From a virus, in IMG/VR virus record IMGVR_UViG_3300047551_001140, positions 1 to 36,857 of that record: a DNA stretch of 36,857 nucleotides; one strand, 5' to 3'. The translations under genes were made by a program, and so were the position numbers. Position 1 is the first letter of the stretch; each line of letters opens with the position of its first letter. Shown here in pieces: positions 851-30,905 of the stretch. A model generated the notes under the pieces. That model saw nothing but the letters and a program-made list of their open reading frames with translations. It had not been told where the DNA came from and made no database searches.

Positions 851-1220
851 ATCTGTAATCAAAAATTATATTGCGGCCCAGCACAAAAATTGGGCGTTCA
901 AACCTAACAGATTCTGTTAAGTTGGGTATGTATGGCACAAACTCGAAGCTTTGTTTTAGTTTATGGATAGGATCATTGTTTTTTTCAAATAATCCTTCTA
1001 ATTCCATACGCCATTCGAAGTACCAGCATTGATCATTGTCCATTCCAAAAATTCCTGCTAATACTTTTTTAGGTGGATCGTCATAGTAAACATTTCCACT
1101 AAGGCTAATTACACTGATTACTGTATCAAAATTTTGTTGCTGTAAACGTTCTAAATCGCTCCTACTACGATAAGTTCGAGTTTCAGTAATATCAACTAGT
1201 GTATAAAGGCTGTAAATCAT
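849..1220 (-). CDS. Conserved phage protein of unknown function
   Basis: 123 residues, soluble, no signal or membrane segment. The N-terminus (LYTLVDITETRTYRSRS) and a central YYDDPPKK followed by a tryptophan/phenylalanine-rich strand resemble small conserved proteins I associate with marine T4-like phages. I cannot assign a function. The start is notable: the minus strand reads GTTAAATA, six bases, ATG, with no Shine-Dalgarno, and a terminator lies just 20 bases further upstream. The mRNA is therefore probably leaderless. The neighbours are the small structural candidate upstream and the coiled-coil protein downstream. Confidence 0.75.
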   Translation of the reverse strand: MIYSLYTLVDITETRTYRSRSDLERLQQQNFDTVISVISLSGNVYYDDPPKKVLAGIFGMDNDQCWYFEWRMELEGLFEKNNDPIHKLKQSFEFVPYIPNLTESVRFERPIFVLGRNIIFDYR

Positions 1221-1226
1221 TGGTAG

Positions 1227-1234
1227 TATTTAAC
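1227..1234 (-). promoter_or_regulatory. Late-type promoter box GTTAAATA, leaderless geometry
   Basis: The box ends 6 nt before the ATG at 1220 and lies between that ATG and the terminator at 1241-1268. If initiation follows T4 spacing, the transcript begins at or one base before the AUG. Confidence 0.65.
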
Positions 1235-1240
1235 AGCCAT

Positions 1241-1268
1241 AAAAAAAGGCCTAGGTAAACTAGGCCTT
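1241..1268 (-). terminator. Rho-independent terminator
   Basis: The minus strand has a perfect 9-bp stem (AAGGCCTAG / CTAGGCCTT) with a 5-nt loop, followed by a T run. It ends 16 nt after the stop of the 1284-1628 gene, which it presumably terminates. It separates that gene from the leaderless-type promoter of the next. Confidence 0.9.
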
Positions 1269-1283
1269 AATGTATAAGCTAAA

Positions 1284-1628
1284 TTAGCTAATGCTATAAA
1301 AGCTTGTTAGCTCTGTAACTGTTACTAACGCAGTTGTTCCAGAACCAGTCATTACGCCAGCTCCACCTAAAACCATATCTACACGGCGAGCAATTGTGTT
1401 GATGTCTAGTGCGTGACCATCACCGACTACTACCATACTTGTACCATCACTCTTAACATTGATAATTGCACCAGTTGTACCGATTTCACGAGCTGTTAGT
1501 TCGCCTGTTCCGTCAACACCATCAGCAAATGCTGTGCCTGGAACAATTTTGAATACTTTTAATTGTAATGTACTAGCAAATGTATTACGTTGACCGCTAA
1601 TACCATTAACTCTTGTAAATGTTGCCAT
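1284..1628 (-). CDS. Small abundant structural protein candidate
   Basis: 114 residues, rich in Gly, Thr, Val and Ala with few charges, predicting a compact beta fold typical of virion decoration or tube-associated proteins. I recognise no named family. It has the strongest expression signals here: GAGGAG eight bases before the ATG, its own late-type box at 1679-1686 giving a leader of about 45 nt, and a strong terminator 16 nt after the stop. A single-gene transcription unit with these signals suggests a product made in high amount late in infection, such as a head decoration protein. That role is inferred from expression signals and composition only. Confidence 0.75.
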   Translation of the reverse strand: MATFTRVNGISGQRNTFASTLQLKVFKIVPGTAFADGVDGTGELTAREIGTTGAIINVKSDGTSMVVVGDGHALDINTIARRVDMVLGGAGVMTGSGTTALVTVTELTSFYSIS

Positions 1629-1678
1629 AATGTTTCTCCTCGTTGGCTTGACCTACTCTCAATAGGCCTTTGTATTAT

Positions 1679-1686
1679 TATTTACC
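1679..1686 (-). promoter_or_regulatory. Late-type promoter box GGTAAATA
   Basis: The box ends 50 nt upstream of the ATG at 1628. It yields a leader with a strong GAGGAG Shine-Dalgarno, in contrast to the leaderless sites. Confidence 0.5.
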
Positions 1687-1734
1687 AAAGTAGAGGAAAA
1701 ATACCCGAATATGGCTAAAATTCAAAGAATTAAA

Positions 1735-2871
1735 TCACTTCGGAGTCCAACGTTTTCTAGGAACTAATTTTACATTTCCAAACTTTTTATCTTGTCCATA
1801 TCGAACATATCCTTCGCCATTAGTAGCCCATATTTCCCCACGTTGGTGTTCTACCTGGTCTATGATTTGATCTTTTAAAGTCATTATTTTAGATACAAGA
1901 TTAAAAATGGCATCTAAGGCACCTTGATTTTGTGATAACTTTTGCTCTATTTTGCCTTGCTTAGGAGTGCTTACTTTACTACTCTTAAGCCAGCTTAGGA
2001 AACTTTGTGTTCCTAAGTTGTTTAATTGCTTTGCTTTAGCAGTTTGATTTACATAAGTGTAAAGTATATTTTTAAGGTCTCCTAATCCCGGAGTTTCTTG
2101 TAAAAATCCATCAATTAATCTAGCATTACTAGATAAATCTTGTTCAACATCTAGTATTTTACTTGTGTCTAAGCTAGTAGGATTACTAACATATACTGGG
2201 CCTTGAACAATTAACATAGGATTTTGATTAAATTGTGAAAAATCATCTAAGGGTTGTTGATCACTATCATCCATTCCAAATTCTGGGAAGTAAGCATGTC
2301 CTACCACCATAACCTGTGCATTGGCAATTTGTTGACCTAATGGGCTACTAGGATTAACGTGATAACAGGTTTGGCTTTTAGGATTGGGGCAAAATGTATA
2401 ATTACCTTCAGCATCGATTTGAGGCTTACTTAAGAATAATGCATCACCATAAACATATCCTACAAAGTCTGTAGGAGTCGCTTGATCAAATATATCATAT
2501 AAGCCTGCAAATTGTTTTGCAAAAGCTATACGAGCCTGTCGTTCCTGATCAGTTTTAGGATCTCCACTACCATAGGCAATAAACTTTGCTAGGTCACGAG
2601 GGTTGTTAGTTTTAGCACCTCTACTCCATCCATTATGTCCTGCTAATATTAATGGACCTCCTTCAACATCTCTACCCCAATATATTTGCGGATTACCATC
2701 CCATTTCATTCGTATACTTTGTCCACCTTCTTCGCTCATCATCTCCCTAATATGTTCAAGGGCTTCTATAGTTCCTTGACTACCATAAAAGAATACAAGA
2801 TCTTCAAGGTGATTGAAGGCACGACCTAATTTTTTCACTGTATTTTCAAATATAAATTCTTTGGCTCTCAT
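1735..2871 (-). CDS. Phage protein with ligase-like KxDG motif
   Basis: 378 residues from the ATG at 2871. I prefer this start over an upstream in-frame one at 2898 because it gives an ATGA overlap with the preceding stop and exposes the N-terminus MRAKEFIFEN. Residues 56-59 read KWDG, followed by GNPQIYWGRD and later VGYVYGDALF. A KxDG before a beta strand is the adenylation motif of the DNA/RNA ligase superfamily, and the later strand could be an equivalent of motif III, but I do not see a convincing motif IV or V. Its product could be a degenerate ligase-fold or an unrelated phage family. It is co-transcribed with a nucleotidyltransferase. Function unproven. Confidence 0.6.
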   Translation of the reverse strand: MRAKEFIFENTVKKLGRAFNHLEDLVFFYGSQGTIEALEHIREMMSEEGGQSIRMKWDGNPQIYWGRDVEGGPLILAGHNGWSRGAKTNNPRDLAKFIAYGSGDPKTDQERQARIAFAKQFAGLYDIFDQATPTDFVGYVYGDALFLSKPQIDAEGNYTFCPNPKSQTCYHVNPSSPLGQQIANAQVMVVGHAYFPEFGMDDSDQQPLDDFSQFNQNPMLIVQGPVYVSNPTSLDTSKILDVEQDLSSNARLIDGFLQETPGLGDLKNILYTYVNQTAKAKQLNNLGTQSFLSWLKSSKVSTPKQGKIEQKLSQNQGALDAIFNLVSKIMTLKDQIIDQVEHQRGEIWATNGEGYVRYGQDKKFGNVKLVPRKRWTPK

Positions 2872-3659
2872 AGTATATCCAACATACGACGGAACCATTC
2901 ATTAGTTCCTACTCTAGCAGGCTGCGGGCGTTCTACCCAATTCTTATCTTGTTTAACAATTGCTAACAATGCTCTGCCTTGGTCAGGGGGTAGTGTTTGC
3001 ATAATAGCTTCTACACTATCTATAGCATTACCATCTTTTACTCCCACTAGCCTTTCTGCTATTTCGTCCCATTCATCGGCAACAAGTTCACCTTTTTTGT
3101 TATCGCTAGTTCTTACGAATAAACCTTCCCAAGCACTGTAGACATAACCTTTTTGCTTTGCTAATGTTGCCAGCATTAGTTGCTTGCTAACTCCTTTATA
3201 AGGGCTTCCTTTAGGTATATTGTGTTGATGGTAACGACTAACCTTGGGTACTTTACGGATACATTCTAGATCAACTTGATAGTATCCATCTTGATAAGGA
3301 ACACGAACAAAAACATTTACACCAGCCTGTGCTGTTTCATAACCCTTTTTATCGAAGTAGTCACGCAGAGCACGACGACCTGCTGCCTCTACTGTATCTT
3401 TTTTATTACGACTTAGATCTGGCTCTGACTGAAATACTTGAATTATATTATCTAAATCAACCATTGTATCTACATCGCCACTCCATTCTTCTGGACTACG
3501 CTCATCAGGCTCTTCCTTCCAACTACTACCTACTGGAACTGCGGCCAAGCCAATTTCTGCTAATTCTTTATTGATAATTTTACGAACAGGATTAACATAG
3601 CGTGGGTCTATGGGCTGAGTGTCAGCAAATATAGCGTGGCCTGTTGCTTCATTAATCAT
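2868..3659 (-). CDS. Pol-beta-type nucleotidyltransferase
   Basis: 263 residues, complete. The catalytic signature is visible: VGSS at 43-46, GDVDTMVD with D62 and D64, and the third acidic strand YYQVDLECI with D130. These acids would coordinate two metal ions for nucleotide transfer onto a nucleic acid or protein. The C-terminal half is unassigned. Translation begins inside the upstream gene's last codons (8-bp overlap) with AGGAAAG upstream, and ends in an ATGA overlap with the KxDG protein, so the three genes form one translationally coupled operon. The target is unknown; RNA end repair or tRNA modification are possibilities only. Confidence 0.7.
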   Translation of the reverse strand: MINEATGHAIFADTQPIDPRYVNPVRKIINKELAEIGLAAVPVGSSWKEEPDERSPEEWSGDVDTMVDLDNIIQVFQSEPDLSRNKKDTVEAAGRRALRDYFDKKGYETAQAGVNVFVRVPYQDGYYQVDLECIRKVPKVSRYHQHNIPKGSPYKGVSKQLMLATLAKQKGYVYSAWEGLFVRTSDNKKGELVADEWDEIAERLVGVKDGNAIDSVEAIMQTLPPDQGRALLAIVKQDKNWVERPQPARVGTNEWFRRMLDIL

Positions 3660-3906
3660 TTTTACTTTCCTGTATTTTCTTCATTCCACGCTTAAATTTT
3701 GCAGGCTCTTGTGTTCTTATAGCATTGATAAATCTACGTTCAATTTCTGCTGCGGTTTCTAAATCATAATGCTCACGGATTAAGCCAATAAGGTTAATAG
3801 CACTTTCAATAAGGTTGCTGCCACGACTTTCGATTACACGATCTTTATCACGACTAATGCCTAAATCAGTAAGTTCAGTTAAAATTGATCTGGTGCTCTT
3901 ACGCAT
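3652..3906 (-). CDS. Conserved small helical phage protein
   Basis: 84 residues, predicted all-helical and charged, with the pattern RKSTRSIL...SRDKDRVIESRGSNLIESAINLI. It resembles small proteins I associate with T4-like cyanophages; no function is known to me. It is first in the operon with the nucleotidyltransferase and the KxDG protein. A late-type box at 3928-3935 lies 21 nt upstream, leaving a leader of about 16 nt with AAGGAT and GAGAG as possible ribosome sites. Confidence 0.75.
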   Translation of the reverse strand: MRKSTRSILTELTDLGISRDKDRVIESRGSNLIESAINLIGLIREHYDLETAAEIERRFINAIRTQEPAKFKRGMKKIQESKND

Positions 3907-3927
3907 AATACTCTCAATCCTTTAGTA

Positions 3928-3935
3928 TATTTAAC
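3928..3935 (-). promoter_or_regulatory. Late-type promoter box GTTAAATA
   Basis: The box ends 21 nt before the ATG at 3906, in the 113-bp divergent gap 3907-4019. It faces away from the plus-strand box at 3981. Confidence 0.5.
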
Positions 3936-3980
3936 TAAATTCTGTTTGGAAATAATATAATATTACTTGCTGCACTGCCA

Positions 3981-3988
3981 CATAAATA
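3981..3988 (+). promoter_or_regulatory. Late-type promoter box CATAAATA
   Basis: 7 of 8 match to TATAAATA on the plus strand, 31 nt before the ATG at 4020. I see no good sigma-70 pair in this gap, so the micro-gene operon is probably late. Confidence 0.5.
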
Positions 3989-4019
3989 CAATTATACACA
4001 TATATAGGGAAAAATTCAA

Positions 4020-4199
4020 ATGACATTAAGCCAGATTATGCTCAATATCCTTGGGCGACTAGCAGAAATGTTTCCTAAAGACGGTTACCAAAGTCGTTTG
4101 GAAACATATCTTAGAACTAAAAGCATTACCGATGCTGCTACTCTTGACAACTACATCAAAGAGTTTACTTACAATTCTCACAAGGAACATTACAAATGA
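4020..4199 (+). CDS. Micro-gene 1 of small-protein operon (59 aa)
   Basis: ATG at 4020, TGA at 4197-4199; 59 residues beginning MTLSQIMLNILGRLAEMF. It predicts two short helices and is mildly charged, with no signal peptide. AGGGA lies about 10 bases upstream. The support is its position: the next gene starts within its stop (ATGA), and the chain of overlaps continues. Function unknown. Confidence 0.65.
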   Translation: MTLSQIMLNILGRLAEMFPKDGYQSRLETYLRTKSITDAATLDNYIKEFTYNSHKEHYK

Positions 4200-4306
4200 T
4201 TACTTTTTTAACATCAATCGCACGTTCAATTTATCTAGCATTAGAGCAGAGTGGACAAGCCCGTGCTCGTAGATACCTCAGTACACATAAAGGAACTTGG
4301 CAATGA
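4196..4306 (+). CDS. Micro-gene 2 (36 aa, arginine-rich)
   Basis: 36 residues; an N-terminal amphipathic helix (FLTSIARSIYLALEQSG) followed by a basic segment QARARRYLSTHKGTW. The layout faintly recalls DUF1127-type small basic proteins but the family's core motif is absent. It starts in the ATGA of micro-gene 1 and ends in an ATGA with micro-gene 3, so it depends on translational coupling. Function unknown. Confidence 0.55.
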   Translation: MITFLTSIARSIYLALEQSGQARARRYLSTHKGTWQ

Positions 4307-4410
4307 AACTATTAAAATGTATATATGAAATATGGTGCCAAGGGCTTTTAGCAAGTCATCTTACTCGTCGCGGACGCTGGCAAAGCGCCGTTAAACTAAT
4401 GAACAAATAA
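4303..4410 (+). CDS. Micro-gene 3 (35 aa)
   Basis: 35 residues, begins MKLLKCIYEIWCQGLL and then turns basic (HLTRRGRWQSAVKLMNK). The hydrophobic-then-basic plan is like micro-gene 2, so the two may be distant relatives or both bind membranes or nucleic acid. It starts in the ATGA of micro-gene 2; the next start is 2 nt after its stop. Function unknown. Confidence 0.5.
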   Translation: MKLLKCIYEIWCQGLLASHLTRRGRWQSAVKLMNK

Positions 4411-4411
4411 T

Positions 4412-4555
4412 ATGACAATATCATTTTTAATATTAACTGCATTATTTTTAATAGCGGCTATTGATGACAAGTTAAGTCATAAACCGGAATTAGGTGAGGA
4501 ATGGGATTTCACACGTTCTTGTTTTAAGCCTAAATCTATAGACACAAATAAATAA
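4412..4555 (+). CDS. Micro-gene 4 (47 aa, single membrane helix)
   Basis: 47 residues; residues 4-18 (SFLILTALFLIAAI) form a clear hydrophobic helix, followed by a polar acidic tail. It is probably a single-pass membrane microprotein. The start is 2 nt after the preceding stop, without a separate Shine-Dalgarno. Its last codons overlap the late-type box for the next gene. Function unknown. Confidence 0.5.
   Translation: MTISFLILTALFLIAAIDDKLSHKPELGEEWDFTRSCFKPKSIDTNK
4547..4554 (+). promoter_or_regulatory. Late-type promoter box AATAAATA
   Basis: 7 of 8 match to TATAAATA, 33 nt before the ATG at 4588, overlapping the end of micro-gene 4. It would give the 4588 gene a leader of about 28 nt that contains GGAG. 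Confidence 0.45.
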
Positions 4556-4587
4556 ACACTATATAATTAACAGACACGGAGACAATT

Positions 4588-4878
4588 ATGTTTAATCAAC
4601 CTTTACTCTTTATCGACAGTGTGCAAAATGCCAAGAGGCAATTTGTAGAAAAATATGTTCGTCATCAAGATATTAAAGCAGATATGATTATCTACATTGA
4701 TGCACAGACTAAATTTTTGCACAGTGCTGTAGAAGCCACAAGTAATATTATTTCAACCTGTGGCAGAGAAATACTCCATACAAAAGTAGAAAAATTAGTC
4801 AATCCTTTTAGTATTGATTGGTTCAAGGCAGGTTGGGATGCCTGGTCTGCACAAAGTCGTGCTGCTCAAAACACCTAA
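4588..4878 (+). CDS. Small helical protein, possibly phasin-like
   Basis: 96 residues, predicted all-helical with no membrane segment. The sequence FIDSVQNAKRQFVEKYVRHQDI, a middle AQTKFLHSAVEATSN and a C-terminal DWFKAGWDAWSAQ follow the general plan of short phasins (polyhydroxyalkanoate-granule surface proteins). There is no invariant catalytic motif to confirm this, so the call is tentative. GGAGA lies 6-7 bases before the ATG. Its neighbour at 4909 is also strongly translated. Confidence 0.7.
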   Translation: MFNQPLLFIDSVQNAKRQFVEKYVRHQDIKADMIIYIDAQTKFLHSAVEATSNIISTCGREILHTKVEKLVNPFSIDWFKAGWDAWSAQSRAAQNT

Positions 4879-4908
4879 CATAAGACATACACACATAAGG
4901 AGAATATA

Positions 4909-5181
4909 ATGTCTAATTTACCAGAAATGAAATTACCTGAAGTAAAATTTAACAAGAATGGATATGAAATCCGCACAGATATTCTACACCTAGCTAAAGA
5001 CCTAGTAGCCCAAGAATACACCTATAAATATCAGGGTTGGGAAATGAGCGCCAAGCGTGATGACAAGACTGGTCAGATCGTTACATCAGTTGGTATGCCT
5101 GAGTTCCCAGGACTTGACAAAGTTCTTGAAACTGCTGAAAAAATGTATGCATTTGTTAACGCAGCAGGCGGTAGAAGATAA
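4909..5181 (+). CDS. Conserved small phage protein
   Basis: 90 residues, acidic N-terminus, central FNKNGYEIRTDILHLAKDL and C-terminal GMPEFPGLDKVLETAEKMY. It resembles a small protein I have seen in several aquatic phages; no function is known to me. AAGGAG sits 7 bases before the ATG, one of the best ribosome sites in the window. A UUCG terminator follows 36 nt after the stop, ending the plus-strand operon. Confidence 0.75.
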   Translation: MSNLPEMKLPEVKFNKNGYEIRTDILHLAKDLVAQEYTYKYQGWEMSAKRDDKTGQIVTSVGMPEFPGLDKVLETAEKMYAFVNAAGGRR

Positions 5182-5217
5182 TCACTACATAGTAGTTAAT
5201 ACTTAATACGTTACGAT

Positions 5218-5239
5218 AAGGGCTCTTCGGAGCCCTTTT
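5218..5239 (+). terminator. Rho-independent terminator with UUCG tetraloop
   Basis: GGGCTC-TTCG-GAGCCC followed by TTTT. It terminates the 4020-5181 operon and touches the stop codon of the convergent 5238-5855 gene. On the minus strand the T run is too short to be a good terminator. Confidence 0.9.
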
Positions 5240-5855
5240 AATTTGACTTTTCTGTATATTCAGACTTGCTCCAGCCTATTAAGAACTTGGCCTTCCAATG
5301 ATTTTGGTCAAAACCTTTTAAGTTTATCCACTCTTCTTTATGCTGTAGAATCTTATTAGCAGCATCAATCCAATCAGTGTGTCTAATTTTAAAATCAAAA
5401 CTAATCATTTTCTCATTGAATTTAAAATAGTTATAGTCGTCGTATTCTACGTGTAACACCTCAAATATATTGCCTTCTGCATCTACACTGTCTAGGGCAA
5501 AATCAAATCCCCATTTAGCTTTAGTATTAGCTAGAAGAGATGCTTGCGGGATAGTTTTAGATAGATTATTAAGTTGCTCTAAAGCCTGGTCTTCATACCT
5601 GCATCTATGGAGAATAAGACAGTGATCTATGATTATATCTTTTATCTCTGATATAAACCAATTTTGTTGAAAACACACATGGTTAAGACAATTATTAAGG
5701 GGGTAATCCATCTTATGGTAGAATAGTTGTTCTGCTCGATTCAATTCAAACCCATCTTTATCATAATACAGAAAATCATTAGCAGTAAAATAATTAATGG
5801 GTTTATAACAGACAGGATGACTTAAGGTTTGAACATCCAACCTTTTAAGCATCAT
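5238..5855 (-). CDS. Conserved phage protein of unknown function
   Basis: 205 residues, soluble, rich in aromatic residues. Segments such as QLFYHKMDYPLNN, IDHCLILHRCRYE, KWGFDFALD and LKGFDQNHWKAKFLIGW resemble a conserved protein family that I associate with T4-like cyanophages, without known role. It starts with ATG-ATG that overlaps the stop of the 5852-6430 gene (ATGA), so it is the last gene of the operon headed at 7190. It is likely co-expressed late with the structural genes. Confidence 0.75.
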   Translation of the reverse strand: MMLKRLDVQTLSHPVCYKPINYFTANDFLYYDKDGFELNRAEQLFYHKMDYPLNNCLNHVCFQQNWFISEIKDIIIDHCLILHRCRYEDQALEQLNNLSKTIPQASLLANTKAKWGFDFALDSVDAEGNIFEVLHVEYDDYNYFKFNEKMISFDFKIRHTDWIDAANKILQHKEEWINLKGFDQNHWKAKFLIGWSKSEYTEKSN

Positions 5856-6430
5856 CCAATCCAGATTTGAGGAATTTCAGTTAAAGCGCCGCCTGTATTC
5901 AGGGCAAGTGTAACAGAAGTTTCTCCAGAAATATATAACACCCCAGTCTGTGTGTCAACTGTACTTTGTAATGCTGTTAAATAAGGAGCTACAAAAGAAG
6001 TAGCCCCAATTTCTAGAACACCAGTTGCAAGTTCCCCAACAACAGGGAACATACTTGTTGACGAATTAAATATGAGTTCACCAGCTAGGTTACTAACTAG
6101 GCTAATATTATAGATTTGTGTTGCATTAAGGGTAAATCCTACACCTTCAACACTAGTTAATGTAGAACTTTGAGCATCTATACTGCTTATTGTAACATTG
6201 CCTGTAGTTTCTACTAGGTTATAAACTACACTTTCACTGGATAGCCAATCAATGCTAAAGTTATAGTTGTCCTCAACTGCTGTCCAATTCTGATAGATAG
6301 GACTATAAACATGAGGACCAGTGGCACTTAAAGTTAAAACTCCGTTGTTTGACTCGGCATACTGTAGTGTTAATATAGGTCCATCAACACCTATAGGCAA
6401 ATAACCAATTGCGTCTATGCCTATCAGCAT
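5852..6430 (-). CDS. Putative virion beta-structure protein
   Basis: 192 residues, almost entirely Ser/Thr/Val/Ile/Gly-rich beta strands with few charged residues and no signal peptide. This composition suggests a virion surface or baseplate-fibre protein. No motif is recognised. GGAT lies 8 bases upstream of the ATG, within the stop region of the previous gene. It is third in the 7190-headed operon. Confidence 0.65.
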   Translation of the reverse strand: MLIGIDAIGYLPIGVDGPILTLQYAESNNGVLTLSATGPHVYSPIYQNWTAVEDNYNFSIDWLSSESVVYNLVETTGNVTISSIDAQSSTLTSVEGVGFTLNATQIYNISLVSNLAGELIFNSSTSMFPVVGELATGVLEIGATSFVAPYLTALQSTVDTQTGVLYISGETSVTLALNTGGALTEIPQIWIG

Positions 6431-6435
6431 TTACT

Positions 6436-7190: not shown

Positions 7191-7213
7191 AATTCATCCT
7201 TGTTAGTTTAATA

Positions 7214-7221
7214 TATTTAGT
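7214..7221 (-). promoter_or_regulatory. Late-type promoter box ACTAAATA
   Basis: The box ends 23 nt before the ATG at 7190. It sits in the only gap between the fibre operon (ending 7223) and the 7190 operon. Confidence 0.55.
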
Positions 7222-7222
7222 A

Positions 7223-10032: not shown

Positions 10033-10039
10033 TTACCGA

Positions 10040-21551: not shown

Positions 21552-21569
21552 CAATCCGCTCCTTACCAG

Positions 21570-21577
21570 TATTTATC
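21570..21577 (-). promoter_or_regulatory. Late-type promoter box GATAAATA for the fibre operon
   Basis: Matches TATAAATA at 7 of 8 positions and ends 18 nt before the ATG at 21551, leaving a leader of about 13 nt with AAGGAGCG. It likely drives the genes from 21551 to 7223. Confidence 0.6.
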
Positions 21578-21580
21578 AGA

Positions 21581-21979
21581 CTATTTTTGTTGGGCTGATT
21601 CGTAAACTTTGGTTAATTCGTCAAAGTCACTGCTCAAATCATAGACAGTTTTATCTTCGTTGATGTGTGCTGGATTGCCTGCTTCGTCGCCGAATCCGTC
21701 TTGTGGGCCGTGTTCGCTGTCAGCACCATTGTTATCCAGGATTTGATTGAGCACAGTACTGCGCTTGCCTGATTTATGCTTTTCTAGTTCCAGCAATTGT
21801 TGTCCTGGAAACACCCATACAGGATCTTCAGGGAGTTCACCCTTATTATAAACAGCTTCTTTAGGGTCTATGGCTGTAGTCGATACCTGTGGGTCACCAC
21901 CTCCACTGGGTATGGTGATATTGATAGGAATGTTTATAGTTACAGTTTTATCTTCTGTTAAAAAATCACGGGCTCGCAT
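21581..21979 (-). CDS. Small virion-type protein with MRARDFL start
   Basis: 132 residues. The N-terminus MRARDFLTEDK resembles the N-terminus of the KxDG protein at 2871 (MRAKEFIFEN), a short motif seen at the start of several T4-like phage virion proteins. The middle is a proline/glycine-rich linker and ELPEDPVWVFPGQQLLELEKHKSGKRS. No function is recognised. The ATG is preceded by ACTAAATA and five bases, with no Shine-Dalgarno, so the mRNA is probably leaderless. Confidence 0.7.
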   Translation of the reverse strand: MRARDFLTEDKTVTINIPINITIPSGGGDPQVSTTAIDPKEAVYNKGELPEDPVWVFPGQQLLELEKHKSGKRSTVLNQILDNNGADSEHGPQDGFGDEAGNPAHINEDKTVYDLSSDFDELTKVYESAQQK

Positions 21980-21984
21980 ATGTG

Positions 21985-21992
21985 TATTTAGT
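21985..21992 (-). promoter_or_regulatory. Late-type promoter box ACTAAATA, leaderless geometry
   Basis: The box ends 5 nt before the ATG at 21979. T4-like initiation would then put +1 on the A of ATG. It touches the stop codon of the upstream gene. Confidence 0.6.
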
Positions 21993-23556: not shown

Positions 23557-23557
23557 C

Positions 23558-24736
23558 TTAATTTTCCTCTAATAAATTCATCCATTTACTATCTATCTGG
23601 GAAAATGGTTTGAAGTTTTTATACAATTTTCGATTTATTACATCCTCGTCTCTTTGATTAATTTTAACTGGAATAGACAAAAAATTATCATTATGTTTCG
23701 AATCCATAAATTTAATTACATTTTGAAAATCTTTTTTGTCTTCATACTTTTTCCTAATATAATCTTTAGCTGTAGGTGAAATTTGATTAATACAAAGATA
23801 TAACGGAGTATACACGTAATTTAAAGTACATTTAACCTGTTCTTCAAATTTAAAAAAATTAAAGATTTGATCAAGATTATTTAAATTATAAACACTGACT
23901 GTTACTATAATTTCTGGATTAAATATAGATTTCAAATCTTTAAAATTTCTTAGCCATGAATTCCAATTTAACCCAGTTCTAATATATTCGGCTAATTCTT
24001 TTATTCCATCCATACTAATGTGGAATTGTATTTCTTTAAATTTTAATAATAATTCTTTTTGTCTTTTATTTAATTTCACAGTTCCATTAGTATTATATTG
24101 TAGAGTAACATCAAATCGATTAATTTTTTCTAAATGCTCTAGTATATCCCACATCCCTGGTTGTAGAAAAGGTTCACCGCCGCTAAAATGCAAATATCTA
24201 ATATTTTCTAGATTCTCTAAAATAGACTTATAAAACATACTTTGTGTATCTAGATAAATTTTTTCAAAAAAAGCAGTAGGTTTATCAAAAAGATGCGGGA
24301 TAGATTCTCTGCCTAACATACTAGATGAGTTAACACCGCACATTCTACAGGCTAGATTACATCTGTTACTAAAATTTATATGTAGATAAGTCAAAGTAGG
24401 ATTCTTAATATAATCAATATGTTTATTAAAGTTGGCTTCGGCATTATGACTAAAACGTTGACTATTTTCTAAGTTCATAACGCAACTGCCGCATTTTGTA
24501 TATTTTTCTAACCTGAGTTCTGCTTCTACAAATTCCTCTCGCAAATAGGAAAAATTATCGAAGTTGTTCTTAAAAGTTTTTGTTTGATCTAATTGGATAA
24601 AATTGGTTTCAGTATCCATAACACAACAAGGTAAAATTGTAGATTTTCCATTCCATTCTTTAATAAACATAGAACTAAAAGGTGCAACACACCATATATT
24701 TTTATATCGTTCTCTCCAGCTTAAATCATCAATCAT
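23558..24736 (-). CDS. Radical SAM enzyme with cysteine-rich N-terminal domain
   Basis: 392 residues from the ATG at 24736; an in-frame TTG at 24751 is an alternative. The radical SAM cluster motif is C126-x3-C130-x2-C133 (SNRCNLACRMCG), with FSGGEP following. Before it lie C16, C37-C38 and C82-x2-C85 (WCVAPF, LPCCVM, CGSC), which look like ligands of an extra iron-sulfur cluster (SPASM/twitch-like, but placed at the N-terminus). Such enzymes use S-adenosylmethionine to make radicals for peptide or nucleotide chemistry. Similar ones occur in many marine phages; the substrate is unknown. Confidence 0.85.
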   Translation of the reverse strand: MIDDLSWRERYKNIWCVAPFSSMFIKEWNGKSTILPCCVMDTETNFIQLDQTKTFKNNFDNFSYLREEFVEAELRLEKYTKCGSCVMNLENSQRFSHNAEANFNKHIDYIKNPTLTYLHINFSNRCNLACRMCGVNSSSMLGRESIPHLFDKPTAFFEKIYLDTQSMFYKSILENLENIRYLHFSGGEPFLQPGMWDILEHLEKINRFDVTLQYNTNGTVKLNKRQKELLLKFKEIQFHISMDGIKELAEYIRTGLNWNSWLRNFKDLKSIFNPEIIVTVSVYNLNNLDQIFNFFKFEEQVKCTLNYVYTPLYLCINQISPTAKDYIRKKYEDKKDFQNVIKFMDSKHNDNFLSIPVKINQRDEDVINRKLYKNFKPFSQIDSKWMNLLEEN

Positions 24737-24757
24737 TTTTTTAATTACCAATTAGTA

Positions 24758-24765
24758 TATTTAGA
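24758..24765 (-). promoter_or_regulatory. Late-type promoter box TCTAAATA
   Basis: The box ends 21 nt before the ATG at 24736 and 6 nt before the alternative TTG at 24751. It heads the radical SAM/small protein/structural protein operon. Confidence 0.45.
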
Positions 24766-24778
24766 ATTATTTTAGGTA

Positions 24779-25078: not shown

Positions 25079-25096
25079 AATTTTTCCAATATGCTA

Positions 25097-25104
25097 TATT
25101 TAGT
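25097..25104 (-). promoter_or_regulatory. Late-type promoter box ACTAAATA (divergent half)
   Basis: The left half of the back-to-back pair, ending 18 nt before the ATG at 25078. It abuts the plus-strand box at 25105. Confidence 0.6.
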
Positions 25105-25112
25105 GTTAAATA
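25105..25112 (+). promoter_or_regulatory. Late-type promoter box GTTAAATA for hemA, leaderless geometry
   Basis: The box ends 5 nt before the ATG at 25118. With 25097-25104 it forms TATTTAGTGTTAAATA, an inverted pair of TAAATA boxes. No Shine-Dalgarno lies between box and start. Confidence 0.65.
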
Positions 25113-25117
25113 TCGTT

Positions 25118-26317
25118 ATGATAAACAAACAGCCATTCAGCGATTTAATAAAATCATTAAAAGACACAGGCAAATACAGAGTGTTCAACGATATAGTAAG
25201 GGAAAACGGCCGATTCCCTAGAGCAATATGGTATGGTCCTTATGCTATTAAAAACATCGTTAACTGGTGCTCTAACGACTATCTCGGTATGGGTCAGCAC
25301 AAGGTCGTCATAGACGCAATGCACACCGCCCTGGACCACACAGGCACAGGATCGGGAGGAACTAGAAATATAGGCGGCACTAGCCACTACCACGTTGCAC
25401 TAGAATACGAATTAGCCACACTACACAGTAAGGCCAAGGCGCTGCTATTCAGCAGTGCCTACGTGGCCAATGAATGGACATTGATTGCCCTAAGCAAAAT
25501 TGTGCCTAATATTGAATTTATTTCTGACAGCAATAACCATAACAGTCTCATTGTTGGCATCAATCATAGTCGTGCTGCTAAAAGTATATTCCGGCATAAT
25601 GATATGGAAATGCTGGAGCAGATGCTTAAGGCCAGTAGAGAAGCAGGACATACACCTTGTATAGTATTTGAATCAGTTTATAGTATGGACGGTGATGTGG
25701 GTCATATTAAGGAAGTAGTTCAACTGGCTGATCGTTATGAAGCAATGACCTACTTAGACGAAGTTCACGCTGTGGGGCTATATGGCTATCACGGGGCAGG
25801 AAAATTAGAAGAACTCGGTCTACAAGATCGCATTGACATAGTTAATGGAACCTTGGGAAAAGCGTTTGGGGTGCAGGGTGGCTACATTGCTGGCGATGCT
25901 GTAGTAATTGATGCTATAAGATCAGTGGCAGCAGGATTTATCTTTACTACATCAATGAGCCCGGTAACCTGTGCAGGGGCCTTGGCTGCTGTAAAATATC
26001 TAAAAGATCATAACGAACTTAGACAACGACATCAACTTAGAGCACAGCAACTAAAAGATAAACTAATAGAACACCAACTACCTTTGATGCAGTGTAGCAC
26101 TACTCATATTGTGCCAGTGCTTGTGGGCGAGGCTAAACGATGTAAAGTTATGAGTGATTATCTGCTAAATGAACACGGCATTTATGTGCAGCCTATAAAC
26201 TACCCCACAGTTGATGTGGGCACAGAAAGATTAAGATTTGCTCCAACTCCCTTACACGATGAAGGTATGATAGAGGACTTGGTTAATGCACTATCAGATT
26301 GTTTTACACAACCTTAG
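25118..26317 (+). CDS. hemA: 5-aminolevulinate synthase (ALAS)
   Basis: 399 residues from the ATG at 25118. I reject the ATG at 25091 because it would add nine residues and contain the promoter. It condenses glycine and succinyl-CoA to 5-aminolevulinate, the first step of heme and chlorophyll synthesis in alphaproteobacteria, using pyridoxal phosphate. Landmarks: [12 protein letters not shown] (N53), GTGSGGTRN (79-84), [10 protein letters not shown] (H141), YLDEVHAVG (D214, H217), GTLGKAFG with K248 as the PLP lysine at the same number as in the Rhodobacter enzyme, and [18 protein letters not shown]. Length is normal (about 400) and no key residue is missing. By hand count 25261-25380 is about 54% G+C, above the AT-rich surroundings. 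Its end overlaps the convergent 26304-26534 gene by 14 bp. Confidence 0.95.
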
Positions 26318-26534
26318 ACAATAGCCAAACACTTTGAACTAGCATAGTCTTTAGTTCAATGTCGTCTGCTTCACTGTCTAGTTTATCAGTGCGAACTAGA
26401 TCCTCTAATAGTGCTTTATATTCATCAGCACTGACCTGTCCTGACTGTAGAGCATCGTGTAGTTGGATAGCATACTGCGCTCGTTGTGCAGCCCAAGGCT
26501 TATTACAATTGGCAATGTTATATAATTCCTGCAT
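26304..26534 (-). CDS. Small conserved phage protein
   Basis: 76 residues, helical, with [39 protein letters not shown] and no membrane segment. The pattern is typical of small conserved proteins beside phage lysis or structural genes, but no role is known to me. It directly follows the lipoprotein stop; TTAGGGAG lies upstream. It is the last gene of the thermonuclease operon and overlaps the end of hemA. Confidence 0.65.
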
Positions 26535-26915
26535 TTAGAATCTCCCTAAGACTGCTCGTGCTGCTCGCTCTGTTTGTGTTTGTAGTAGTTCTCGTTTTAA
26601 TTTACAATATACTTCACTGGCATCTTTTTCTCGTGTTCTATCATGAAACTCCTGCACAGTGTCTTTGATAGGCTTGATCAATTTCAGCATATCTCTGTGA
26701 TCTCTGCCCTGACTGTATAATTCAAACCATTCTACATTACGCAGTATTCTCTGTGCCTGTGGATGGTGTGGCTGCTTACAGTCTAAGTAGGCCACTTCCA
26801 TTCTTACATCAGTGATACGCTGTGCTTGATTAGCATCCCAAAAACTAGGAATATAGTCCTTGATAGTGCTGCATCCTGCGAGACTTATTGCAAGAACAAA
26901 GACCAAGGATCTCAT
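26535..26915 (-). CDS. Lipoprotein
   Basis: 126 residues. A short signal peptide ends in the lipobox LAGC (C15), so the product is likely lipid-anchored. The mature part is helical and charged (LIKPIKDTVQEFHDRTREKD). It starts as TAATG on the stop of the secreted nuclease and precedes the small 76-aa gene. It could be an outer-membrane lysis component (o-spanin-like) or a superinfection-exclusion lipoprotein. No inner-membrane spanin partner is evident nearby, so the function is open. Confidence 0.7.
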   Translation of the reverse strand: MRSLVFVLAISLAGCSTIKDYIPSFWDANQAQRITDVRMEVAYLDCKQPHHPQAQRILRNVEWFELYSQGRDHRDMLKLIKPIKDTVQEFHDRTREKDASEVYCKLKRELLQTQTERAARAVLGRF

Positions 26916-27349
26916 TAATTACACCAACTCTGCTTCGCTTCGCCAAAGTATTCGCGGGCAAAGCCATTCTTGATCAATTCTGCTCTAAGACTAACACCAT
27001 TAAGGATGATATCGCCTAGCACACGACCACCAAACTTATCCCATCCATAAAGCACAACTTGATGCTTCTGTGTAGTAGTCACAGCGTTCTTAGTAAAGGC
27101 CGATGCTGCCTGTCCTCGCTGATCTTCTGAGGGGCATTGAGCACGGAATCCTTTTTCAGGAGTATCCACACCATAGATCCTAACTGCTAGCTCAGGCTTA
27201 AGTGGTGCTGGCAAATATGGTGCTGCTATGACCACAGTATCACCGTCATTTACTCTTACAATTTTTGCATCATATAGCACGCCTTGTGGCTGCTTTTGTG
27301 CCCAGGCCAACAAGGGAAGTAGGGCCAGTAATACTAGTAGTCGTTTCAT
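26915..27349 (-). CDS. Secreted staphylococcal-nuclease-like thermonuclease
   Basis: 144 residues. A signal peptide (KRLLVLLALLPLLAWA) is followed by the SNase fold: VNDGDTV with D37, VRIYGVDTPE with R57, D62 and E65, and DKFGGRVLGDI with R109, corresponding to D21, R35, D40, E43 and R87 of the S. aureus enzyme (one extra glycine near R109). The calcium-dependent nuclease should act in the periplasm or outside the cell. It heads an operon with a lipoprotein. GGAGCG precedes the ATG and a late-type box is at 27373-27380. Confidence 0.85.
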   Translation of the reverse strand: MKRLLVLLALLPLLAWAQKQPQGVLYDAKIVRVNDGDTVVIAAPYLPAPLKPELAVRIYGVDTPEKGFRAQCPSEDQRGQAASAFTKNAVTTTQKHQVVLYGWDKFGGRVLGDIILNGVSLRAELIKNGFAREYFGEAKQSWCN

Positions 27350-27372
27350 TTATCGCTCCATTAAACTACTAC

Positions 27373-27380
27373 TATTTACT
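27373..27380 (-). promoter_or_regulatory. Late-type promoter box AGTAAATA
   Basis: The box ends 23 nt before the ATG at 27349, giving a leader of about 18 nt with GGAGCG. It abuts the stop of the DUF454 gene. Confidence 0.5.
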
Positions 27381-27799
27381 CAAAAACTGTTATTGAACCA
27401 GCCTATTTTACGACCTTGTTCTATGCGTAGATCGTATTCTTCTACTGTGCTAGGAAAACGCCACGCCCATATCGCCACTAAGGCCATAAACACTGCTGTA
27501 TATGCTATACCACGCACGGCTACACCGCCACTATACATTAAGATTAGACTAACGCTCATACTGGCTAGCATAAAGAATTTTAGTTTTAATGGAAATACAC
27601 GCTTTTGATTCCAGTTAGTGATGAAAGGTCCGAATATACGATGATTCATAATCCAGGCGTGCATCTTTGGACTAGACTTAGCAAAACAGTAAGCAGCGAA
27701 TACCACAAAAGGACTATATGGAAGTCCAGGAGTAATCACTCCTATGTAGGCCATTCCTAAACTAACGAATCCTAAACATAACCAAAAATAACGTTTCAT
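27380..27799 (-). CDS. DUF454/YbaN-type inner-membrane protein
   Basis: 139 residues. The region IGVITPGLPYSPFVVFAAYCFAKSSPKMHAWIMNHRIFGPFI is the DUF454 (YbaN) signature, followed by two or more membrane helices (FFMLASMSVSLILMYSG, YTAVFMALVAIWAW). DUF454 proteins are cellular inner-membrane proteins of uncertain function, so a phage copy is unusual. Its ATG overlaps the stop of the radical SAM gene (ATGA), with GGGGAA upstream, so it is produced with that enzyme. Confidence 0.85.
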   Translation of the reverse strand: MKRYFWLCLGFVSLGMAYIGVITPGLPYSPFVVFAAYCFAKSSPKMHAWIMNHRIFGPFITNWNQKRVFPLKLKFFMLASMSVSLILMYSGGVAVRGIAYTAVFMALVAIWAWRFPSTVEEYDLRIEQGRKIGWFNNSF

Positions 27800-28659
27800 G
27801 CCATTCCCCAGCTACCTTCACTTTTGCGAGCTTGTAGATCAAATCCATTAGTGCATTGAAGTTTTGGGCAGGCAATTGGACCATTAAAGACTTGAATACG
27901 ATCTGAATAAATGTTTCCAAATCTAGTGCCGAAACACCAACCTCTATAAACATCACCTAACTGATTTATTACAATTTGTTCCGATCCTGCCCAACACATA
28001 TGTCCGTAGAAATTATTTAAGTTATGTTGGCGCTTGAACTCTATAGTTTTGACAACTTCTTCTTGTCCAACAATTCCTCTAGTAAAATAATAATAGTCCC
28101 ATTGTTCCTTAGTATAGTTTAAGTATTGATTATTTCCTCTGGTAAAATTACTATATAGAAATTGTAATTGTAAATCAAAATTATAAGGCTTTAATGTTTC
28201 ATAAACTGTAATTTGTTTATTCCAGTTATCTGGGCTTATTGGAAGTAAAATTGTAGGATTAAGATTTTTAAGTTCTTGTACTACATCAAAAAAATGATCA
28301 AAGTCAGTGCCATTATGGTATGTTAGCTGTATTTGACTAAGCTTGCTTTTAATTGTTGCCCACCAAGATATATCAGCATATCCGTTAGATACAAGCTGAT
28401 ATTTTATTTTAGGGTTCGAATTTCTAGCTATAATTAGCTGTAGATTTTGGCTATAAGTTGGCTCACCGCCTGTTATTTCTAAAATAATACTGTCGTAAGA
28501 TTCACTTAAGATGTTTAAGTTATCGAAAGCTTTGGTTAGTTTTTCTAGTTCCGGAAAAGGATTGTCACCCTTATATAATTCAGGGTGACAATATCCACAT
28601 CGTAAATTACATTGGTTAGCTAAACTCCATTGGATCTTTAGCTCAGAAATTCTCTCCAA
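27796..28659 (-). CDS. Radical SAM enzyme, short type
   Basis: 287 residues. The cluster motif is C17-x3-C21-x2-C24 (NQCNLRCGYCH), then ITGGEPT near residue 65. The C-terminus has HMCWAGSEQ...GDVYRGWCFG and CPKLQC, consistent with an auxiliary iron-sulfur cluster (twitch/SPASM-like). The start is a TTG at 28659 with AAGG 8 bases upstream; no ATG exists before the motif. It overlaps the HNH gene by 22 bp and is ATGA-coupled to DUF454. The substrate is unknown; peptide modification is the usual function in SPASM relatives. Confidence 0.8.
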   Translation of the reverse strand: MERISELKIQWSLANQCNLRCGYCHPELYKGDNPFPELEKLTKAFDNLNILSESYDSIILEITGGEPTYSQNLQLIIARNSNPKIKYQLVSNGYADISWWATIKSKLSQIQLTYHNGTDFDHFFDVVQELKNLNPTILLPISPDNWNKQITVYETLKPYNFDLQLQFLYSNFTRGNNQYLNYTKEQWDYYYFTRGIVGQEEVVKTIEFKRQHNLNNFYGHMCWAGSEQIVINQLGDVYRGWCFGTRFGNIYSDRIQVFNGPIACPKLQCTNGFDLQARKSEGSWGMA

Positions 28660-29150
28660 CTTTCGTGCCTTACTATAAAAGGAAACTGCTTTCTTTTATT
28701 TACTAATTCAAAATAACTAGGGCGGTAAGGCTTAATTTTTGGACGAACACGATGGTTGTTACCCTTGGCTGCATTACAAGGTCCACAACTTGTTACGGTA
28801 TTTTCGAAAGTAGTTTTGCCGCCTTTGCTGATAGGTAAGACGTGATCTAACGTGCAGTCTTTCTTCTGTAGTATATGTGAGCAATATGAACAACGATATA
28901 GGTCTCTCAGATAAACATTTCCTCTACTGAATCTTACAGTTTGTTTTGGTTTCATAAACTCTTTCAGCATAATTACAGCAGGTACAGGAGTGCTCCAACG
29001 ATGACTATGTACAATCCAATTGTCGTGCCAATTCAATACGTGTACTTTTTCAAGCACCATATATCTAATTGCCTCTTGCCAATCTATTACGCTTAATGGA
29101 AGATAAGTCATAGGCGCTCCATCAGCGTTTAATACTAGAGTATCGCTCAT
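28638..29150 (-). CDS. HNH endonuclease
   Basis: 170 residues. N-terminal LVLNADGAPMTYLPLSVIDWQEAI is the region usual in the cyanobacterial/phage type of HNH protein, and C87-x2-C90 with C122-x2-C125 bind zinc around the core LDHVLPISKGG (D102, H103), N117 and NAAKG. It nicks or cuts DNA; a role in packaging, homing or host DNA attack cannot be separated. It heads an operon (HNH, radical SAM, DUF454). Confidence 0.85.
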   Translation of the reverse strand: MSDTLVLNADGAPMTYLPLSVIDWQEAIRYMVLEKVHVLNWHDNWIVHSHRWSTPVPAVIMLKEFMKPKQTVRFSRGNVYLRDLYRCSYCSHILQKKDCTLDHVLPISKGGKTTFENTVTSCGPCNAAKGNNHRVRPKIKPYRPSYFELVNKRKQFPFIVRHESWREFLS

Positions 29151-29199
29151 TTCTAATTCTTTATGGGTTAAAACAGATTATATTTTAACACCATTTTTA

Positions 29200-29207
29200 T
29201 ATTTAAT
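29200..29207 (-). promoter_or_regulatory. Late-type promoter box ATTAAATA
   Basis: The box ends 49 nt before the ATG at 29150 and overlaps the stop of the YqgE gene. The Shine-Dalgarno of the HNH gene is weak. Confidence 0.4.
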
Positions 29208-29751
29208 CAAGTAGTTTTTGGACAAATTCCGAACCACTACATTCAATGCCGTGAGTCCATTGCTCAACGCTATCTAATTCAAACACATTATGATAGTTTG
29301 ATGTTGCAGTTAACCAACTACTATCGTGACTATAAGGATGTCGCCCTTTTACTTCTTGCTCTAACTGATCAGGACTCCAAGCACACAATCCTAAGAACAT
29401 TCGCCAATATTTTGGCCTATCTCCCATAGCTAATCTTTGTAATAAATCAGGTTGGCTGCTTAATCCAAAATTGTTATCAATTTCAAGAGTGTTATTACAA
29501 CGCCAATCTGAACTATGAAGAATAGTAAGTGCTTTAAGATTTACTGGTCCACCAACATAAAGATATCCTGGTATCTCGCATTCAAACCCAACCTGTCGGC
29601 TAAAATCAATAATAGTATTTTTACTATTACGATTGAGAAGTATTCCCATACTTCCCCTAACGTGATGTTCAGTTATAAAGATAACTGATTTTTGCCAGAA
29701 AGTTCCTCGTACATTGGGTGGTGCTATTAATAACTGTCCAGTTAAATTCAT
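29203..29751 (-). CDS. YqgE/AlgH family (DUF179) protein
   Basis: 182 residues. The N-terminus LTGQLLIAPPNVRGTFWQKSVIFITEHHVRGSMGILLNR and the later YVGGPV, ILHSSDW and AWSPDQLEQEV are diagnostic of the UPF0301/YqgE/AlgH family, whose cellular role is unclear. A phage version is present here as a single-gene unit. The ATG is preceded by ATTAAATA and six bases (no Shine-Dalgarno), so its late mRNA is probably leaderless. Confidence 0.85.
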   Translation of the reverse strand: MNLTGQLLIAPPNVRGTFWQKSVIFITEHHVRGSMGILLNRNSKNTIIDFSRQVGFECEIPGYLYVGGPVNLKALTILHSSDWRCNNTLEIDNNFGLSSQPDLLQRLAMGDRPKYWRMFLGLCAWSPDQLEQEVKGRHPYSHDSSWLTATSNYHNVFELDSVEQWTHGIECSGSEFVQKLLD

Positions 29752-29757
29752 ATGGGG

Positions 29758-29765
29758 TATTTAAT
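29758..29765 (-). promoter_or_regulatory. Late-type promoter box ATTAAATA, leaderless geometry
   Basis: The box ends 6 nt before the ATG at 29751 (spacer CCCCAT). It is intergenic. Confidence 0.6.
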
Positions 29766-29775
29766 AGTACAGAAA

Positions 29776-30054
29776 TTATAATTGGCCTTTTCTGGTACCG
29801 TAATCTGGTAACGGACCTCCGTACTTTTTACCTTTTATTTTTTTACCGCCTACTGTTATTCTAGTGGAGCTGTTTCCGTGCCCAACTAAATGGCTTTTTT
29901 GCCCTTCTCTAGCTCTAAGTCCTTGGCTTTTACAACTGGCTAAGTTGCTGGCTCCTAAATCTTTGTTCGATTTAGTGCTCAAGCATAAGGCACGGCTTGC
30001 TTTTTCATCTAGGTCAGCAAGTTCTTCGTCTGTAATAAATTCTTGTATCAGCAT
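29776..30054 (-). CDS. Small basic protein with GASxLxSCK and GGPLPDYG motifs
   Basis: 92 residues. The segment KSNKDLGASNLASCKSQGLRAREGQKSHLVG and the C-terminal GGKKIKGKKYGGPLPDYG recur in many large aquatic phages in my memory, but have no assigned function. It is strongly basic, consistent with binding DNA or a capsid surface. The ATG is preceded by CATAAATA and four bases, without Shine-Dalgarno. Confidence 0.75.
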   Translation of the reverse strand: MLIQEFITDEELADLDEKASRALCLSTKSNKDLGASNLASCKSQGLRAREGQKSHLVGHGNSSTRITVGGKKIKGKKYGGPLPDYGTRKGQL

Positions 30055-30058
30055 TTAG

Positions 30059-30066
30059 TATTTATG
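30059..30066 (-). promoter_or_regulatory. Late-type promoter box CATAAATA, leaderless geometry
   Basis: The box ends 4 nt before the ATG at 30054, between that start and the stop of the epimerase gene. Confidence 0.55.
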
Positions 30067-30068
30067 GT

Positions 30069-30893
30069 TTAGACTTCTAAGTCTAGCCATTCATATACAT
30101 TCAGCCACTTACGTCCGCCTATAGTTTGTTTAAGATGTCTAAGATCTGCACAGGTTTTAGTACGAAATCTTGTCATTTCTTCGTAGGGTACAGGAACAAA
30201 AACTATGCTTACGCCTTCTTGTTCTGCAATTGTTTCTGCAATATGTAAAAAACTATGGGGTAATCCTGCCCCTACATTCCAGATGCCACTCCCTTTTACT
30301 GTCTTTATAAAGTCTAAGTGCAGCTGACATATATCTCCTACCCAAGTCCAGTCTCTATAAATGTGTTCTGCATTTTCCCAAACTTCAATATATCCTTGCT
30401 TTCGAGCCTGCTCTCTCCACTTATGGATGACGTTAGCTCTGGATCCACGTAGGTGCATCCATTTACCGTAGACATTGAAGTATCTAAATCCTTGTACAAA
30501 TATATTATGTTCTCGTTCAAAAACCCAGCGATCGAATAAGTATTTGCTCCAAGCATAAGGTGTTTGCGGGTGACACGGTGCCGACTCCTCAAAATTATTT
30601 GTTTCCCCGTATACAGTGCTAGAGCTTGCATATTGCAGGTTTACACCTAATCTGTTACATTCGTTAAACAAATAACAACTGAAGTCATAATTTTGAATCA
30701 TACACTTTTCTACGTCAGTTTCGCTTACATCTGCAACTGCTCCAAGGTGTACAACCCAATCATATTGTTTTACATCTGGCCAATGCTTAGGATCCCAATC
30801 GTACCCATCTACACGCCACTCTAACTGACGACCTAAAAAGGCCGTCATATTTTTACCGATAAACCCTTCTGACCCAGTAACTAAAACCTTCAT
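30069..30893 (-). CDS. NAD(P)-dependent sugar epimerase, HldD-like
   Basis: 274 residues. GSEGFIG (G7, G10, G13) is the Rossmann loop, SSSTVYGE and Y113-x3-K117 (YAWSK) are the catalytic short-chain residues, and FRYFNVYGKWMHLRGSRANVIHKW is reminiscent of ADP-heptose epimerases (HldD). It interconverts nucleotide sugars, probably to alter cell-surface or DNA/protein sugars. It starts after AGTAAATA and four bases, without Shine-Dalgarno. The methyltransferase stop codon shares bases with that box. Confidence 0.85.
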   Translation of the reverse strand: MKVLVTGSEGFIGKNMTAFLGRQLEWRVDGYDWDPKHWPDVKQYDWVVHLGAVADVSETDVEKCMIQNYDFSCYLFNECNRLGVNLQYASSSTVYGETNNFEESAPCHPQTPYAWSKYLFDRWVFEREHNIFVQGFRYFNVYGKWMHLRGSRANVIHKWREQARKQGYIEVWENAEHIYRDWTWVGDICQLHLDFIKTVKGSGIWNVGAGLPHSFLHIAETIAEQEGVSIVFVPVPYEEMTRFRTKTCADLRHLKQTIGGRKWLNVYEWLDLEV

Positions 30894-30897
30894 TCAA

Positions 30898-30905
30898 TAT
30901 TTACT
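30898..30905 (-). promoter_or_regulatory. Late-type promoter box AGTAAATA, leaderless geometry
   Basis: The box ends 4 nt before the ATG at 30893. Its TAA is also the stop codon of the methyltransferase gene, so chance overlap is more likely here than at other sites. Confidence 0.45.

Follow-up and report, generated by a model that had tools for sequence, protein, structure and literature searches.

Late transcription in phage T4 is a textbook system, and its mRNAs are led by Shine-Dalgarno (SD) sequences. The T4 late promoter, TATAAATA, spans positions -13 to -6 (PMC1524935). Leaderless mRNAs, as described for lambda cI and for bacteria, have the AUG at the 5′ end and no SD, with a strong preference for AUG as start codon (PMC9031893), and Thermus phage phiYS40 produces leaderless mRNAs from its middle and late genes (PMC3594737). 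In pelagimyophages, a comparative study found late-promoter prediction unsuccessful (PMC7029224). Here we describe a lineage of large T4-like phages in which, judging from sequence, the gp55-type late promoter is very probably often fused to the start codon, giving leaderless mRNA.

The stretch of DNA analysed (the window, 36,857 bp) is a complete IMG/VR record and probably a fragment of a larger genome. Relatives found via its 92-aa and 132-aa proteins are viral contigs of up to 383 kb, and the terminase of one of them, G001, is closest to those of the jumbo T4-like isolates PA5oct (56%), Phosso (50%) and GAP32 (44%). We read eight relatives (G001–G008); these uncurated contigs from metagenomes are not independent of one another phylogenetically. 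Pooled figures refer to the window plus six of them, leaving out the short G008 and also G005, which seems to duplicate G002 for the most part. Genes were called by a simple home-made coding-potential script blind to upstream motifs, and the gap, meaning the number of nucleotides that separate the final A of TAAATA from the ATG, was then measured. T4, Syn9, GAP32, PA5oct, P-SSM2 (first 240 kb) and Phosso (120 kb) served as controls.

A preliminary description of the window had claimed six starts at which a TAAATA box stands just before the ATG without an SD. All six pairs are present at the gaps given in Table 1, and none carries an SD. Beside the three products named there, the genes encode three small proteins without assigned function. 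The box is found at 4–6 nt from ATG 1220 in 8/8 orthologues, down to about 32% identity, and is kept at 4–8 nt from ATG 25118 in 21 of 25. ATG 29751 and ATG 30893 are the two weakest sites and are not consistently conserved; at ATG 30893, the weakest of the six, only 14 of 54 orthologues have the box. TAAATA is depleted in the window overall (39 against 75 expected), yet enriched at starts: it lies at 4–8 nt in 6 of the 37 ATG genes, against 0.28 ± 0.55 in dinucleotide shuffles (maximum 3 among 200). The phage 5-aminolevulinate synthase is of the kind described as vAlaS (PMC11480375). Three radical-SAM proteins are also encoded in the window.

Table 1. Late-promoter boxes, the genes behind short gaps, and other features; coordinates refer to the window unless a relative is named.
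Feature	Coordinates	Strand	Gap (nt)	ATG	Remarks
TAAATA box, short gap	1227..1232	-	6	1220	directly after conserved T-rich terminator-like stretch
Terminator-like stretch GGCCTTTTTTTATGGCTGT	1233..1250				conserved in orthologues; abuts promoter of 123-aa gene
ORF, 123 aa	849..1220	-		1220	no family match; predicted leaderless
TAAATA box, short gap	21985..21990	-	5	21979	kept in 3/3 orthologues
ORF, 132 aa (MRARDFLTED...)	21581..21979	-		21979	predicted leaderless
TAAATA box, short gap	25107..25112	+	5	25118	half of divergent promoter pair, 39-bp gap
5-Aminolevulinate synthase, 399 aa	25118..26317	+		25118	TIGR01821, 557 bits vs cut-off 339; predicted leaderless
TAAATA box, short gap	29758..29763	-	6	29751	kept in 27/49 orthologues
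YqgE/AlgH-like protein, 182 aa	29203..29751	-		29751	PF02622, 101 bits; predicted leaderless
TAAATA box, short gap	30059..30064	-	4	30054	kept in 29/31 orthologues
ORF, 92 aa (MLIQEFITDEEL...)	29776..30054	-		30054	no assigned function; predicted leaderless
TAAATA box, short gap	30898..30903	-	4	30893	overlaps TAA stop of upstream DNA methyltransferase gene
Nucleotide-sugar epimerase, 274 aa	30069..30893	-		30893	PF01370, phrog_540; predicted leaderless
TAAATA box, leadered	843..848	-	54	788	GGAG SD
TAAATA box, leadered	1679..1684	-	50	1628	GAGGAG SD
TAAATA box, leadered	3928..3933	-	21	3906	
TAAATA box, leadered	4549..4554	+	33	4588	GGAG SD
TAAATA box, leadered	7214..7219	-	23	7190	AAGGA SD
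TAAATA box, leadered	21570..21575	-	18	21551	AAGGAG SD
TAAATA box, leadered	24758..24763	-	21	24736	
TAAATA box, leadered	25097..25102	-	18	25078	divergent
TAAATA box, leadered	27373..27378	-	23	27349	GGAG SD
TAAATA box, leadered	29200..29205	-	49	29150	
Radical-SAM protein	23558..24751				twitch-domain radical SAM (NF033640)
Radical-SAM protein	27796..28659				weak viperin-family match (1e-10, below cut-off)
Radical-SAM protein	34722..36038				twitch-domain radical SAM (NF033640)
sigma70 promoter fused to ATG, G001 (example)	352283		6		
sigma70 promoter fused to ATG, G002 (example)	289935		6		
sigma70 promoter fused to ATG, G003 (example)	101125		6		

Other boxes in the window were said to keep leaders with GGAG-type sites. 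This is true of most of them, with GGAG/AGGA-type sites at the starts and boxes 18–54 nt upstream, although a few of the sites are weak. The range of 7–17 nt before a gene holds no correctly oriented intergenic box in the window. At 33276-33281, a TAAATATG that shares bases with an ATG is ambiguous, and the exact TATAAATA occurs once in the window, within a gene, the form of the clade being gATAAATA. Two divergent late boxes stand four bp apart at 25097-25112, one facing a putatively leaderless gene and the other a leadered gene; similarly close divergent pairs occur in relatives.

Across the window and six relatives, the distribution of gaps is bimodal, with 100 genes at 4–8 nt (25, 43, 9, 18 and 5 at gaps of 4, 5, 6, 7 and 8 nt, respectively), about 8 at 9–13 nt, and a broad, SD-bearing hump at about 15–35 nt. 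Counts in the bins 4–8/9–13/14–35 nt were 26/4/42 in G001, 23/1/56 in G002, 18/0/29 in G003, 16/0/22 in G004, 7/2/13 in G007 and a weak 4/1/15 in G006. The controls gave 0/5/25 (T4), 0/0/23 (Syn9), 0/3/35 (GAP32), 2/4/43 (PA5oct), 5/3/43 (P-SSM2) and 0/1/20 (Phosso). Among Pelagibacter phages, HTVC008M gave 15/0/8 and Mosig 8/2/19, while Melnitz was weak (2/2/20). The preliminary description would have counted a lack of positional enrichment of the box, across the genome and relatives, as refutation, but such enrichment is seen: against dinucleotide shuffles, the 4–8 nt class numbered 26 vs 3.6 in G001, 23 vs 4.3 in G002, 18 vs 2.6 in G003, 16 vs 1.7 in G004, 15 vs 2.5 in HTVC008M and only 4 vs 1.3 in G006. 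T4, Syn9 and GAP32 had no gene with TAAATA at 4–8 nt in the same test. The ratio of short to long gaps was 100:188 in the pool, whose members are not independent, against 2:136 in T4, Syn9, GAP32 and PA5oct (Fisher p = 1.2e-17). HTVC008M and Mosig together reached 23:28 against the same controls (p = 1.9e-13), with a short class of mostly exactly 5 nt; in HTVC008M, TAAATAG-type boxes lie exactly 5 nt from the ATG of virion genes, and the baseplate-wedge gene at 31132 has the TAAATA-N5-ATG arrangement. In the larger genomes, other permutations of the same letters are on average about one fifth as frequent at 4–8 nt, and of the ten hexamers most frequent in that range, all but TAAATA are SD hexamers. 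A count that needs no gene calls agrees: TAAATA-N5-ATG followed by 60 or more open codons occurs 49 times, against 3–5 when ATT or ATA replaces ATG.

The boxes resemble T4-type late promoters in several respects. Because the T4 box covers -13 to -6, +1 is the sixth base after it, and a gap of 5 puts the AUG at +1; the distance of about 5 nt from box to +1 given in the preliminary description agrees with the published coordinates (PMC1524935). Short-gap and long-gap boxes share identical flanks (G at -2 in 41/42%, A at -1 in 54/64%, G just after the box avoided at 4/4%), so that both are one element. The gATAAATA motif is found upstream of terminase, tail-tube, baseplate-wedge and virion genes. 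As to homologues of gp55, gp33 and gp45, which had been named as a check, only the first was found in the lineage: the gp55 family (phrog_234) is present in the three largest relatives, G001, G002 and G003 (E ~1e-25), and the window fragment is without it. Neither gp33 (phrog_254) nor gp45 (phrog_223) gave a match in the lineage or in PA5oct, and both were found in HTVC008M. Sequence divergence is the likely reason, since PA5oct, the nearest isolate, is also without a match.

Transcription starts usually prefer a pyrimidine at -1 and a purine at +1. Among short-gap genes, 85% have a pyrimidine directly before the ATG (96% at gap 5), compared with 44% where no box is present; counted by protein family, the figure is 68 of 77 (p = 6e-16). 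At gap 7, A stands at box+5 in 83% of genes (7/8 families), the typical sequence being ACT-ATG; a 3-nt leader is therefore predicted. At gap 8, the same pattern is displaced by one, in five genes only. With strict T4 spacing, transcription of the gap-4 genes (25, including two window genes) would begin at the U of the AUG, so the start position must be allowed a shift of 1 nt.

We further compared substitutions between orthologues. In codons 2–12 they numbered 545/314/1170 at codon positions 1/2/3, against a flat 1194/1100/1229 upstream, in orthologue pairs that are not independent. Because the codon-position constraint starts there, coding begins at these ATGs. Downstream in-frame SD-led starts are no commoner in the short-gap class (3% vs 5%). 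The class starts with ATG in 100 cases and with GTG in one, and an SD is present in 2% of it vs 63% of leadered genes, a difference partly forced because the box fills the SD position. Counting pelagimyophage and Melnitz genes, it comprises 77 families, which in relatives include the terminase large subunit, tail tube, virion structural proteins and a baseplate wedge protein. TerL orthologues have the short-gap layout in four genomes, as does the baseplate wedge gene in G001, with homologues likewise in G003, HTVC008M and Mosig. An N-terminus like MRAxEFLxE is common to unrelated proteins at window 21979, 30054 and 2871 and in relatives, being enriched about tenfold over internal Met in several of them, and resembles the capsid-targeting sequence carried by internal head proteins of T4. 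As a shared property of the short-gap class it was rejected, since only a minority have it.

TATAAT also peaks close to the ATG in this lineage. Requiring a -35 element and at least 10/12 matches, we found 38 sigma70 promoters at gaps of 4–8 nt (exactly 6 nt in 28 cases), 2 at 9–14 nt and 145 farther upstream, a pattern detected post hoc in the same genomes as the late-box analysis. T4, Syn9 and GAP32 have none of this quality at 4–8 nt. In the lineage, TTGACA is perfect and spaced at 17 bp in many of these promoters (TTGACA-N17-TATAAT), and in relatives a leadered sigma70 class, peaking at 30–32 nt, exists beside the fused one. Two promoter types thus stand at two distances, each fitting its own start spacing, a pattern that little besides selection for starting on the AUG would readily explain. 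Early-type and late promoters alike appear to make use of leaderless initiation. Because sigma70 promoters are fused likewise, it would be a general layout in the lineage and not a late-gene device. Of the two translation modes proposed for late genes, the box-led, putatively leaderless class and the SD-led class are strongly supported, but their confinement to late genes is not.

We propose that the extended late promoter, approximately gATAAATA, is fused to the ATG such that RNA polymerase would start on the A of the AUG when the box is 4 or 5 nt away, and 3 nt before it, typically as 5′-ACU-AUG, in most 7–8 nt cases. The mRNA would then have neither leader nor SD, and translation would proceed by recognition of the 5′-terminal AUG. 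Genes of a second class, mostly SD-led and with leaders some 10–30 nt long, would be driven by the same promoter, and sigma70-type promoters (TTGACA-N17-TATAAT) 6 nt before the ATG would act alike. Positional enrichment, the shared motif, the initiator signature, gp55 and the T4 spacing all strongly support an mRNA starting on or beside the AUG; from these we infer the RNA 5′ ends, recognition of the box by gp55 and the ribosomal mechanism. It is likely, with less assurance than for the late promoter itself, that a lineage-wide rule exists by which promoters of both temporal types, host sigma70 and phage gp55, are fused at their own spacings, giving 0- or 3-nt leaders in dozens of genes, among them terminase and other virion genes, with the late version also in pelagimyophages. 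The predicted leaderless layout holds for the window's lineage and pelagimyophages, but not for T4-like phages generally, as T4, Syn9, GAP32, PA5oct and Phosso are without the class.

The boxes could be real late promoters even if most translation draws on longer read-through transcripts, through coupling or initiation without an SD, and the leaderless transcript is incidental. The packing of the genes agrees with this, as 73% of short-gap genes have a same-strand upstream neighbour at a median distance of 34 nt. However, some genes have no upstream transcription, such as that at window 25118, a lone + strand gene with no adjoining + strand gene upstream and with divergent boxes in a 39-bp gap; the pyrimidine-A signature at the AUG and the valley at 9–13 nt would be left unexplained, and T4 and GAP32, though compact, lack a short-gap class. 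We consider such read-through improbable as the main route. It is far less probable that TAAATA near the ATG is an AT-rich translational element, although it does sit at the position of the SD and replaces it: the same extended motif recurs 15–35 nt ahead of genes that do have an SD, other permutations of the AT letters show far less enrichment, the box keeps the spacing of a T4 late promoter, and sigma70 promoters behave alike at a different distance, matching their own spacing. We give least credence to chance or genome compaction, or to wrongly called starts with true SD-led starts downstream. TAAATA is indeed frequent in AT-rich genomes, but dinucleotide shuffles fall far below the observed counts, AT-rich compact controls have none, and the downstream starts and codon constraint given above speak against miscalled ATGs.

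Possible causes of fusion between promoter and start codon were also considered. Phage-encoded bS21 is present in most leaderless genomes but was rejected, being also found in PA5oct and Phosso, which are without the class. An alphaproteobacterial host was likewise rejected: Sinorhizobium phage Phosso (120 kb) has no such class, and phiM12 and phiM9 are without any TAAATA-N5-ATG. Matches to the 5-aminolevulinate synthase span several phyla. IF3 disfavours leaderless mRNA (PMC9031893), and phage-encoded IF3 was detected only in GAP32 (234984) and Phosso (382560), both without the class; a link between IF3 and absence of the leaderless class is suggestive (n = 2).

Pelagibacter is an abundant ocean bacterium. 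Collectively, our results suggest that the same late promoter seems to have been rewired for leaderless translation of core virion genes in a large environmental branch and in cultured Pelagibacter phages, and the fused layout may explain why late-promoter prediction failed in pelagimyophages. It helps to assign start codons more correctly in many uncultured jumbo phages, and provides a ready natural system in which to study how leaderless mRNA at high load is dealt with by the ribosomes of infected cells. As transcription starts are predicted to the nucleotide, the proposal is easily tested. In the open-access literature we came across no account of leaderless late mRNA of the T4 type; leaderless phage mRNA is known, but its systematic use with T4-type late and sigma70 promoters appears undescribed there.

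Compared with the T4-type late promoters of T4, S-PM2 and Syn9, the lineage shares the core TAAATA box, the NATAAATA-like form, the location before virion genes and a gp55 homologue. In T4, Syn9, GAP32 and PA5oct, however, the box lies about 14–40 nt from the ATG, leaving room for an SD, whereas about one third of boxes in the window's lineage are fused to the AUG. In HTVC008M and Mosig the late box is fused in the same way, in most cases exactly 5 nt from the ATG, but both phages are distant from this lineage and have few sigma70 fusions. The lytic phage phiYS40 has leaderless beside leadered transcripts, as is predicted for the lineage; it differs in host, phage and promoters, as the window's lineage uses T4 late and sigma70 promoters and has no known IF2/IF3 change. 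The restriction to middle and late genes seen in phiYS40 is not found here, since sigma70 promoters are fused to AUGs too. With lambda cI and leaderless bacterial mRNAs the lineage shares the missing SD, the preference for AUG and, by prediction, the AUG at the 5′ end; in contrast to lambda cI, the layout is carried by dozens of genes, core virion genes among them, and the spacing to the start is specific to each promoter type.
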